Positions 5,003 to 59,370 of a stretch of DNA of 64,000 nt are shown here, piece by piece. This DNA is from Haloterrigena salifodinae (GTDB lineage: Archaea > Halobacteriota > Halobacteria > Halobacteriales > Natrialbaceae), in NCBI RefSeq assembly GCF_003977755.1, contig NZ_RQWN01000004.1, forward strand, positions 186,001 to 250,000, in the 5' to 3' direction. Both the position numbers and the translations under genes were made by a program. A model generated the notes under the pieces. It was not told the origin of the DNA, ran no database searches, and saw nothing but the letters and a program-made list of their open reading frames with translations. Positions within the stretch are counted from its first letter, which is position 1, and every line of letters begins with the position of its first letter.

Positions 5003-5620
5003 ACCCCATCGAGAGACACAAGCAACTCTTCGCCTGATAGGCGCTGAACGCTCTCATCAGGCAATCTGTCACTGGGTACATCGGCTGGCTGACAGCGTAT
5101 CAGACCCGCCGACGTCCACGAGAGCGAAGCGCTCGTGCGGCCTCTTGGAGCGCTTTGCGCTCCAATGGTCGGCGAATCGAAGATTCGCCTCGACAGCAGA
5201 ACGCTCTGCGTTCTGAGGACGGCATCGCCGTCGCAGGTCGCTGTCGACGAAACTGCTGTTAAGATCAACAGCGAGTGTTCTTGTCTGTACGATGCAATAG
5301 ACACCGAGACAAAGATGATTCTTGACGTTGAATTGTTTAGTCGACATGTTACAGATCCGGCGGCTGCGTTTCTGCAGAAACTCCGCGAGAGATACGATTT
5401 TTCCAAGACGGAGTTTCTCGTCGATCAATTTGGCTATTGGACTGCCCCTCTCTCGAGTCGGACTAAGCGGTCGGGTCAACTATACCGACCGAAACCGCAT
5501 CAAAAAGTGGTTTCACACCCTCAAAATGCGAGTTGACCGCTTCCATAACTCATGAGTTGATAGTCAAGCGAACGCTAGGGAATGAATTGAACAGCTTTTC
5601 CACTACTACACATATAACGA
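5003..5620 (+). pseudogene. IS6-family transposase remnant carrying a hairpin-array insertion
   Basis: Plus-strand pieces RETQATLRLIGAERSHQAIC, then VAVDETAVKINSE, DAIDTETKMILDVELFSRH, LVDQFGYWTA and NYTDRNRIKKWFHTLKMRVD cover the central and C-terminal transposase. The terminal repeats are missing, the frame shifts several times, and the C-terminus decays after base 5560. A 107-nt insertion (5115-5221) interrupts the region just before the first catalytic aspartate. It is clearly the same IS family as the copies at 6012, 35853, 40146 and 58826. Confidence 0.85.
5115..5232 (+). repeat. Array of short hairpins inserted in a transposase gene
   Basis: Five consecutive palindromes with mostly 3-nt loops: 5117-5137 (8-bp arms with a 2-nt bulge), 5145-5165 (TTGGAGCGC-TTT-GCGCTCCAA, 9-bp arms), 5171-5189 (GGCGAATC-GAA-GATTCGCC), 5197-5215 (CAGAACGC-TCT-GCGTTCTG) and 5218-5232 (GACGGC-ATC-GCCGTC). 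Gaps are 2-7 nt. Comparison with the copy at 35912 shows that 5115-5221 is an insertion placed after a GACG and ending in GACG. Its ends resemble those of the 56-nt insertions at 6619-6674 and 58960-59015. Confidence 0.85.
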
Positions 5621-5640: not shown

Positions 5641-5856
5641 AGAATCGCTAGCGGACGTGGTCTGTACGTCTGTTCGTCGTGCGAAACGACGATGAGCGCA
5701 GACATGAAAGGTTTCATGAATATCCGAAGAAAGATAACTTAGAGTCCCCCGACGGGGGATATGAGTAATGGCTGGTTGGCATAGCCCGGAGTCTTCCTGT
5801 TCGACCGTGAGAGCGGACAGTTCATACCGAGAGAACAGGAAGACTGCAAACCCTAA
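5641..5856 (+). pseudogene. IS200/IS605-type TnpB C-terminal remnant
   Basis: One frame reads YVCSSCETTMSADMKGFMNI, then IT[stop]SPPTGDMSNGWLA[stop]PGVFLF, and ends CKP at TAA 5854-5856. The CxxC zinc-finger half and the tail GDMSNGWLA...PGVFLFDRESG are typical of haloarchaeal TnpB (OrfB) ends. Both internal stops are TAG where glutamine is usual. The RuvC catalytic part and TnpA are missing, so it cannot act. Confidence 0.8.
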
Positions 5857-5875
5857 TATCCCAACGCTCGGGATT

Positions 5876-5895
5876 CCTCCGCTTTCAGCCGGAGG
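5876..5895 (+). repeat. Right-end hairpin of the IS200/IS605-type remnant
   Basis: CCTCCG (5876-5881) pairs with CGGAGG (5890-5895) just after the TnpB tail. IS200/IS605 elements end in such a hairpin, which is also part of the guide (omega) RNA that TnpB uses. Only this end survives. From 5896 to 6011 nothing else is recognisable. Confidence 0.55.
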
Positions 5896-6011
5896 CCAAT
5901 ATGAAATCCACAAATATTCGAGTATCACTATACATCAGCTTCAATATGGTTACAAAAACCCAAGTACCCCATATAGTGGGTTATTCTCAATGCTCGAAAG
6001 AATAGGTTCCC

Positions 6012-6808
6012 GGCACTGTCTAGTTTAGCACCTCCGCTGACGTTTGTCTGTTGAGTGATTGGTGCGGTCGTTGTGTGTTATAATAGTGTACAAACTGTTC
6101 AAGTCATTCCCTGACGCTCGCCTGACTTCCCACCCACGAATTATGGAAGCGGTCAACTCGCATTTTGAAGGTGTGAAACCACTTTTTAATCAATTTCGAT
6201 CAGCGTAGTCGAGCTGACCGCTCAATCCTAACCGAGAGAGGGCAGTCAGATATCCATAGCTATCGACGAGAAACACGGTATCGGAGAGATCGTGTTTCTC
6301 GGTCAATCGATGCAGGAATGTAGCGGCCGGATCGGTGCCTCGTCGTCCAAACACTGCGACATCGAGAACGAGTCTAGAGTCCACGTCTATTGCAGCGTAT
6401 ACCCAAGACCAGTCGCCGTTGATCTTGACAGCGGCTCATCAACAGCGACCCGCGACGGCTGCGCCGTCGGCGGGTCTGATACGCTGTCAGCCAGCCGATG
6501 TACCCAGTGCCAGATTGCCTGATGAGAGCGTTCAATGCCTATCAGGCGAAGAATTGCTTGTGTCTCTCGGAGCGAACATCCGGTCGCGTGGAGGCGGACG
6601 GCGAACACTCTGACGGGCGTCCTCAGAACGCTCCGCGTTCTAATGGGCCGCACAAGAGCTACCCTCTTGTGAACGTCGCCGTCCGCTCACGCTCCCAAGA
6701 TTCATCAAATTCCGCCGCGTAGCATTCGCTGAGCAGGTCCGCGAGCGGCATAGCCAACCTAGCTCTACGACCTACTCGCTTCTCAAACCGCGCTAACTAG
6801 ACGATGCC
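6012..6808 (-). mobile_element. IS6-family insertion sequence, full length but inactive
   Basis: Terminal repeats are GGCACTGTCTAGTT (6012-6025) and AACTAGACGATGCC (6795-6808). The transposase reads leftward from about 6770 and is broken by frameshifts; recognisable parts are RETQAILRLIGIERSHQAIW, SDPPTAQPSRVAVDE and LDVAVFGRRGTDPAATFLHR. The length, 797 bp, equals the 743-745 bp of the other complete copies plus a 56-nt hairpin insertion (6619-6674). The right end abuts the truncated DAACS transporter gene. No 8-bp target duplication was found. Confidence 0.88.
6619..6674 (-). repeat. 56-nt double-hairpin insertion in the IS6 transposase
   Basis: Contains AGAACGC-TCC-GCGTTCT (6626-6642, 7-bp arms) and CACAAGAG-N5-CTCTTGTG (6652-6672, 8-bp arms). 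Read on the minus strand it starts TTCACAAGAG and ends TCTGAGGACG. It is nearly identical to 58960-59015, and its ends resemble those of the larger insertion at 5115-5221. It lies inside a longer palindrome, GGACGGCGA...TCGCCGTCC, that belongs to the transposase gene itself. Confidence 0.8.
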
Positions 6809-35852: not shown

Positions 35853-36597
35853 GGCACTGTCTAGTTGAGCCAGTTTGAGAAACGAGCAGGTCGTTGAGTG
35901 AATTGGTTAGAATGCTCGCAGACCTGCTCAACGAGAGCTACGAGGCGGATTTAGAAGAAACTTGGGTGAATGAGCGGACGGCGACGCCCGTCAGGGCATT
36001 CGCCGTCCGCCTTCATCAGACCGGTTGTTCGCTTCGAGAGACAACAACGATTCTCGCTGAATTAGGCGTTGAGCGCTCTCATGGAGCGGTCTGGAACTGG
36101 GTACATCGGCTCGCTGACAGCGAACGCGACCCGCCGACGGCGTCGCCGTCGCGGGTCGCTGTTGACGAGACCGCTGTCAAGATTAACGGCGAGTGGTCTT
36201 GGGTGTATAGTGCAATAGATACCGAGACAAAGTTGATCCTCGACGTCGCATTATTTGGTCGGCATGGCACCGATCCGGCGGCTGCATTTCTGCATAGGCT
36301 CAAGGAGAAACACGATCTCTCCGAAGCTGAGTTTCTTGTCGATCAATTCGGCTATCGGACTGCCCTTGCTCGATTAGGGTTGAACGGTCGAGTAAACTAT
36401 ACCGACCGAAACCTCATCGAAAAGTGGTTTCACACTCTCAAAATGCGAGTTGACCGTTTTCATAACTCATGGGTAGGCAGTCGGGCGAGCGTACGCGAAT
36501 GAATTGAACAATTCGTGCATTACTACAACCATCAAAGACCGCATCAATCGCTCGACGGACGAACGCCGGCCGACGAGGTACTGAACTAGACAGTGCC
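35853..36597 (+). mobile_element. IS6-family insertion sequence, one nonsense mutation
   Basis: Terminal repeats GGCACTGTCTAGTT (35853-35866) and AACTAGACAGTGCC (36584-36597) are perfect complements. The transposase starts at ATG 35912 (MLADLLNESYEADLEETWVN) and ends at TAG 36587-36589. Catalytic DDE residues are in VAVDETAVKINGE, FLVDQFGYRT and YTDRNLIEKWFHTLKMR. A TGA at 36500-36502 replaces a tryptophan (SVRE[W]IEQF), after which YYNHQRPHQSLDGRTPADEV completes the protein. This is the best-preserved copy in the window and the reference for the others. No target duplication: ATATGATC left, GCCATTCT right. Confidence 0.92.
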
Positions 36598-58825: not shown

Positions 58826-59370
58826 GGCACCGTCTAGTTAGCACAGTTTGAGGAACGAGTAGGTCGGAGAGCGAGGTTGGAACTATGCTTGCAGACCTTC
58901 TCAGCGGGTGCTATGCGGCGGAATTTGATGAAGCTTGAGAACGGGAGCGGACGGCGACGTTCACAAGAGCGTAGCTCTTGTGCAGCCCATTAGAACGCGG
59001 AGCGTTCTGAGGACGCCCGTCAGGGCGTTCGCTGTCCGGTTCCATGCGACTGGTTGTTCTCTTCGAGAGACACAAGCAATTCTTCGCTCATTCGGCAGTG
59101 AAAGGTCTCATCAAGCAATCTGGTACTGGGTTCATTGGCTGGCTGACAGCGTTCCAGACCCGCTGACGGTTTCGCCGTCGCGGGTCGCGGTTGATGAAAC
59201 CGCTGTCAGGATTAACGGCAACCGATCTTGGATGTACGCTGCAATAGACATCGACACGAAACTCATCCTCGATGTAGCGCTCTTTGAACGGCGGGGCACC
59301 GATCCAGCTGCTGCGTTTCTACATGGACGTACCGCGAAACACGATCTATATCACGGCGAACGAGGCCACT
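58826..59370 (+). pseudogene. IS6-family element, left two-thirds, with hairpin insertion
   Basis: The left end is GGCACCGTCTAGTT (58826-58839). The transposase starts MLADLLSGCYAAEFDEA (58885) and soon meets a TGA; a 56-nt hairpin insertion (58960-59015) then shifts the frame. Beyond it come TPVRAFAVRFHATGCSLRET, FGSERSHQAIWYWVHWLADS, VAVDETAVRINGNRSWMYAA and RRGTDPAAAFLHGRTAKHDL. The match ends at about 59365; the C-terminal third and right end are missing. Confidence 0.87.
58960..59015 (+). repeat. 56-nt double-hairpin insertion (second copy)
   Basis: CACAAGAGC-GTA-GCTCTTGTG (58962-58982, 9-bp arms) and AGAACGC-GGA-GCGTTCT (58992-59008, 7-bp arms). GACG stands just before the insertion (58956-58959) and its last four bases are GACG (59012-59015). 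Nearly identical to the minus-strand reading of 6619-6674, and inserted at the same place in the transposase gene. Confidence 0.85.

Follow-up and report, generated by a model that had tools for sequence, protein, structure and literature searches.

Two-hairpin DNA units of 51 and 56 nt form a conserved mobile family in haloarchaea, inserting at fixed sites and nesting

Transposition of IS200/IS605 insertion sequences through single-stranded DNA is well established, and the d(C-GNA-G) motif is known as a classical hyperstable DNA mini-hairpin. Among small mobile repeats, those closest to the units described here come from three quite different sources. The SMR-A repeats of Haloquadratum walsbyi (HqIRS42/43/55) are haloarchaeal, and in the portion of the account available their mobilisation is termed 'enigmatic' by the authors (PMC3119063). 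Fungal mitochondria harbour the double-hairpin elements, or DHE, of Allomyces (Paquin 2000, as cited in PMC2800124 and PMC4618339). The CGTC-tagged REPs, which include Rickettsia RPE-4/-6 and Neisseria dRS3, are reported from five bacterial phyla (PMC3733652). Within the literature available for searching, there was no description of the unit family reported in this study.

In the 64,000-nt stretch of Haloterrigena salifodinae DNA analysed here (the window), three of the six IS6 transposase copies hold inserts, located at two different sites in the gene (Table 1). These inserts had been noticed in a first-pass annotation made from the letters, and both their number and their common ends are confirmed, every insert being preceded by (R)CG and ending GGACG. 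Its coordinates needed adjustment. The unit given as 6619-6674 corresponds to the insert at 6618-6673, the shared CG making the ends ambiguous, and the end given as 5232 takes in the IS6 gene's own palindrome, of which only the first 4 nt are overlapped by the element end. The supposition that the 107-nt and 56-nt inserts are units of one kind had to be given up, for the longer insert is a 56-nt unit interrupted by a separate unit of 51 nt. Genome-wide, four IS6 copies carry the 107-nt insert at site 2, three carry the 56-nt unit at site 1, and one carries a 56-nt unit at site 2; a single copy has inserts at both sites. All insert-carrying IS6 genes checked are frameshifted pseudogenes, and the unit copies in the window are therefore understood as fossils. 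Palindromes with a 3-nt loop and arms of at least 7 nt occur 19 times in the window, where shuffling under a second-order Markov model predicts 3.8, an approximately five-fold enrichment unmatched by any of the other loop sizes between 0 and 12 nt. Beside the IS6 copy with the 107-nt insert, at ~5732-5896 (+), there is a near-threshold match to the Rfam family sot0042 (sense-overlapping RNA; 83.8 bits against a cut-off of 88), probably the remains of an IS605/tnpB end.

Table 1. Positions of the inserts and of their IS6 carriers in the window
Feature	Position	Strand	Remarks
107-nt insert	5115-5221	+	Composite; hairpins H1, H2 (5145-5165), H3 (5171-5189), H4 (5197-5215)
Unit A, 5' half	5115-5142	+	TCCACGAGAGC-GAA-GCGCTCGTG then CGGCC; hairpin H1 and linker
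Unit B, 51 nt	5143-5193	+	Hairpins H2 (5145-5165) and H3 (5171-5189); nested within unit A
Unit A, 3' half	5194-5221	+	Hairpin H4 and terminal GGACG
IS6 gene's own palindrome, GACGGC-ATC-GCCGTC	5218-5232	+	Target at the insertion site; outside the element
Unit A alone, 56 nt	6618-6673	-	IS6 site 1; H1 loop decayed
Unit A alone, 56 nt	58960-59015	+	IS6 site 1
IS6 transposase pseudogene with A+B at site 2	5234-5591	+	Portion 3' of the insert
IS6 transposase pseudogene with A at site 1	6098-6432	-	Matched portion
IS6 transposase fragment with A at site 1	59181-59348	+	Matched portion
IS6 copy with site 2 empty	36152-36508	+	CCGACGGCGTCGCCGTCG; L254

Each unit consists of a pair of adjoining perfect hairpins, both with 3-nt loops, together with a conserved linker and short ends. 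Unit A (56 nt; H1 and H4) has the form TTCACGAGAGC-nnn-GCTCTCGTG CAGCC CATCAGAACGC-nnn-GCGTTCTGAGGACG, and unit B (51 nt; H2 and H3) the form TCTTGGAGAGC-nnn-GCTCTCCAATGGTCGGCGAATC-nnn-GATTCGCCTCGA; in a variant of A, referred to as A', the linker is CGCACA. The stems start with TCAG, CCAG or GCAG, and a GTAG end is absent from the unit consensus. In the composite, B is placed between the GCC and the CATC of A (56 + 51 = 107); in three tnpB genes the A+B insert measures 111 nt, which gives a composite range of 107-111 nt. Both units exist on their own: A without B at the IS6 site of the composite (L005) and at a tnpB site (L128 compared with L030), B without A in the tnpB genes of L039, L075, L078, L083 and L086, where it stands ahead of CAAC. 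The ends (CGTY...GGACG) are able to pair with each other, as in CGTT...GGACG, and a single strand could therefore fold as a three-way junction. In four tnpB genes with unit B (L075, L078, L083, L086), the H3 loop GTA gives rise to an in-frame TAG, beyond which the frame stays open to the end in L078 and L083; truncation, readthrough or an internal start could each be the consequence.

The stems of the hairpins covary. Pair 7 of H4 is Watson-Crick in 57 of 68 sequences (27 in shuffles, maximum 37) and pair 8 in 53 (25 in shuffles, maximum 38); overall, pairs 1, 7 and 8 of the recognised H4 hairpins covary well above shuffles, which provides the arm covariance that the first-pass annotation had asked for. 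Loops are 3 nt long, the closing pair is 5'-C...G-3' in 188/195 hairpins, and 120/195 loops read GNA or, as the complement of this, TNC, against an expected 1/8. In a single genome, G011, 385 kb contain 64 two-hairpin units with 3-nt loops, whereas shuffled sequence has none and each of the other loop sizes gives one at the most; this count passes over loops with ends able to pair. C-G closure is found in 107 of the 109 hairpins there and a GNA/TNC loop in 52. All these counts come from related sequences and so do not represent independent trials. Folding z-scores of the unit DNA range from -4.3 to -6.3. The C-G-closed GNA/TNC triloops point to folded single-stranded DNA. Stem mismatches were considered as a test of the strand involved and proved unusable: the excess of G-T over A-C (30 v 16) is uninformative because most of it is contributed by A', whose outer pair is a conserved G-T, and with that pair set aside the mismatches point to neither strand.

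The units are widespread. Among 392 Halobacteriales genomes, a 119-nt DNA query gave matches in 108, a covariance model of A+B in 261 and the H4 module pattern of unit A in 240, the latter representing 69 of 95 genera with up to 20 copies per genome; the reversed H4 pattern, used as control, had no match in the same 392. The B core pattern, searched over 84,980 species, was confined to haloarchaeal contigs, and A' was matched in 50 haloarchaeal plasmid records. Viral contigs gave a single H4-pattern match (L152), lacking the 3-nt-loop hairpin, and none for the B pattern; phage records contained no unit and the H. walsbyi plasmid PL47 no double hairpins. Units occur in IS6, tnpB and tnpA genes, at IS605 ends and in unannotated DNA, hence outside the one IS lineage to which a one-time expansion would have confined them. 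They occur in both orientations relative to genes, some of them away from annotated transposases. IS605 tnpA/tnpB or IS6 genes lie near units in 32 of 93 neighbourhoods compared to 18 of 400 random stretches, probably an undercount given the small query set. On annotated plasmids, A' is found immediately upstream of tnpA and elsewhere upstream of an IS6 transposase, and B within an annotated tnpB adjoining tnpA.

Comparison of orthologous sites with and without a unit, likewise proposed at the outset, identified three conserved sites that exist both empty and filled, all of them in IS605/tnpB DNA and two at IS605 ends. Site CACAGGCG|TTGATTC is empty at 7 loci, and the 6 filled loci hold A, A', A+B or two units in tandem. 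Site GGAGCG|CAGTAGGG is empty at 2 loci and filled at 5, and ACGGCG|CTGTATCC empty at 2 and filled at 6. Across 52 distinct contexts, CG stands directly 5' of unit A in 49 and the tail of the unit is GGACG in 49; the junctions show no target duplication beyond the CG that doubles as the element's own end. The target suggested at the outset, GACG, is better written (R)CG. Target sites are frequently in or beside palindromes. Unit B inserts right before CANC, including the CATC inside unit A, and has no common left flank. Its copies in the tnpB genes of L078, L083 and L086 are identical at 51/51 positions whereas the flanks are only 63-84% identical, from which it follows that B was recently inserted or replaced at one site. 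At five further loci (L074, L077, L149, L174, L178) the units occupy a recurrent context, CCCACG|TT...GGACG|TTTTT. On a tree of IS6 copies labelled for site 2, in which the row for L017 is wrongly labelled empty, filled and empty copies are mixed, with 7 label changes on the best tree and at least 3 forced by well-supported branches; independent insertion and conversion between copies both fit this pattern and cannot be separated by it. The wide spread, the empty and filled sites, the CG bias and the covariation of the arms together establish a conserved mobile family with recurrent precise insertion at fixed sites, and with nesting, as opposed to a one-time expansion or slippage. The idea of a palindromic micro-element family spreading by insertion is thereby supported.

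As to the mode of movement, we favour with moderate confidence that the units are transposase-free micro-elements, moved as folded single-stranded DNA by an HUH enzyme (Y1, IS200/IS605 TnpA-type) acting in trans. The enzyme would recognise the hairpins and carry out the cutting and joining; IS605-family DNA, being single-stranded while transposing, would then be a favoured target. Unit A goes in directly 3' of (R)CG and has GGACG as its own end, so that the target is recreated each time and tandem arrays can grow. Unit B goes in before CANC, the CATC of unit A among them, giving the 107-111-nt composite at typical A sites. Precise insertion 3' of an end-like sequence, hairpins, DNA-type loops and IS605 targets all fit Y1 transposition of single-stranded DNA, and the tetranucleotide logic of IS605 suits A better than B because B lacks a shared left flank.

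The enzyme step is one that we infer, seeing that the source genome has no Y1 gene and that the genomic correlation is kinship-blind and confounded. A Y1 gene is present in 23 of 26 high-copy genomes, and of the three without it two are <90% complete. Unit copy number correlates with Y1 count (Spearman rho 0.32), a value that ignores kinship among genomes and is confounded because IS605 is a target too. The H. salifodinae genome and two congeners contain no Y1 gene; the genome of the laboratory strain Haloferax volcanii does give a Y1 match. Two genomes, G000 and G374, have no Y1 (PF01797) transposase and several unit copies each. Among 30 Y1 loci, at which IS605 boundaries were not set, there was no autonomous element with the units' ends; the search beside Y1 genes yielded only more two-hairpin units.

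If the units were structured RNA elements that moved by way of an RNA intermediate, or were removed or bypassed at the RNA level (compare fungal mitochondrial hairpins and translational bypass elements), they would likewise have covarying stems and sit inside genes. The 111-nt A+B of three tnpB genes and the 51-nt B are multiples of 3, and TnpB is open 3' of B in L078, L083 and L039, with the in-frame TAG of the H3 loop in L078 and L083. We nonetheless consider this RNA reading unlikely. The loops obey the C-GNA-G triloop rule known for DNA, or the complement of that rule, whichever strand is read, and units are present in both orientations relative to genes; the IS6 inserts are of 107 and 56 nt, in host genes that are pseudogenes anyway, and a search of Rfam found no family that covers the units. 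Many copies lie within near-terminal palindromes of IS605 and near tnpA/tnpB, as though the hairpins regularly belonged to IS605, for terminal recognition or as an omega-RNA scaffold, but the same IS605 sites exist without units, and units are found in IS6 genes too and away from annotated transposases, which makes this account improbable. It is very improbable that the palindromes arose in place through replication slippage or template switching at hairpins, a mode of spread the first-pass annotation had allowed for: targets are often within or beside palindromes, and foldback copying would yield perfect arms with concerted changes and may maintain the arms, but linkers and ends conserved across the order cannot form in place, and defined boundaries, empty sites and the CG preference contradict it as origin. 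Least credible is a one-time expansion in one IS6 lineage that multiplied as the IS was copied and was distributed further by gene conversion. The four IS6 copies with the 107-nt insert at one site suggest that part of the inserts may have been passed down along with the IS, but such an expansion is refuted as a full account by units at many unrelated, non-IS6 loci in 69 genera, by tnpB and IS605 sites both empty and filled, by single sites holding differing unit types and by B being identical across tnpB genes with diverged flanks.

Beyond A and B, genome G011 contains arrays of up to 15 3-nt-loop hairpins and further two-hairpin families with the linkers TGATCA, TACGTA, GCCA and others. Its arrays of 8-15 consecutive hairpins, comprising several unit families, run from 14526 onward in L249 and from 9206 onward in L242. 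In G174 (C6), a tnpA (Y1) gene is broken by two units of the TGATCA/TGATGA family (L118, 1682-1832). It is conceivable, if rather doubtful, that all these belong to a whole haloarchaeal class of minimal single-stranded DNA elements with a common plan, made up of a terminal stem, a fixed linker and two C-NNN-G triloop hairpins, nesting into arrays of at most 15 hairpins and moved by machinery other than the standard IS200/IS605 transposase.

Our study matters because it delimits a very small mobile element of 51-56 nt, present in most haloarchaea, together with the boundaries, the targets and the empty sites that belong to it, and because it offers a concrete structural model for the 'enigmatic' small mobile repeats of these organisms. 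With the C-GNA-G triloop rule, the single-stranded DNA hypothesis can be put directly to the test in tractable hosts, for instance Haloferax. The bias to transposon genes and IS605 ends has a bearing on the interruption or reshaping of tnpB/omega-RNA systems.

Regarding known systems, the comparison with bacterial REPs and Rickettsia palindromic elements drawn in the first-pass annotation is fair as an analogy and does not extend to membership. The GGACG tail of unit A reads CGTCC on the other strand (49/52 contexts) and so shares the tag of the CGTC-REPs, and the two-hairpin units resemble a head-to-head dimer with CGTC outside; REPs of this kind and the units alike occur within genes and have no known dedicated transposase (PMC3733652). 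CGTC-REPs, however, have 8-9-bp stems starting AT, 4-5-nt loops and CCA tails (PMC3733652), whereas the units have 3-nt loops and other stem starts; assignment to them fails on stem start (TCAG/CCAG/GCAG) and on loop size (3 nt only). Assignment to REP/RAYT (GTAG) fails on the consensus, which has no GTAG end, and on the source genome, which has no Y1. PATEs and IS200/IS605 elements are like the units in their end palindromes, absence of duplication and insertion 3' of a short end-like sequence; unlike them, the units are only 51-56 nt, no IS605 with their ends was seen among the 30 Y1 loci and their source genome has no Y1.

The available portion of the SMR-A account describes haloarchaeal repeats without transposase and without target duplication, as are the units (PMC3119063). 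The ~110 bp given there for SMR-A agrees with the A+B composite (107-111 nt) but not with A (56 nt) or B (51 nt) alone (PMC3119063). SMR-A sites are described as near-terminal palindromes of IS605 and PATEs; the units have two IS605-end sites empty and filled, with junctions sharing CG only (PMC3119063). In the same portion, SMR-A are described with conspicuous inverted repeats at their termini and with copies of one type that commonly exceed 95% identity, and two-hairpin modules, 3-nt loops and nesting do not figure in it (PMC3119063). The likeness drawn here is one of size (for A+B), target class and lack of duplication, and membership of the units is not demonstrated in SMR-A, DHE or CGTC-REPs. 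The closest structural analogue is the DHE, an analogy that implies no claim of common descent and under which no kinship in sequence would be expected: as far as the cited passages go, DHE and units alike consist of two adjacent stem-loops, are mobile, leave no flanking duplication and have an unexplained mechanism (PMC2800124, PMC4618339). The DHE are fungal and mitochondrial in those passages, and C-G-closed GNA triloops together with CG targets are the features of the haloarchaeal units.
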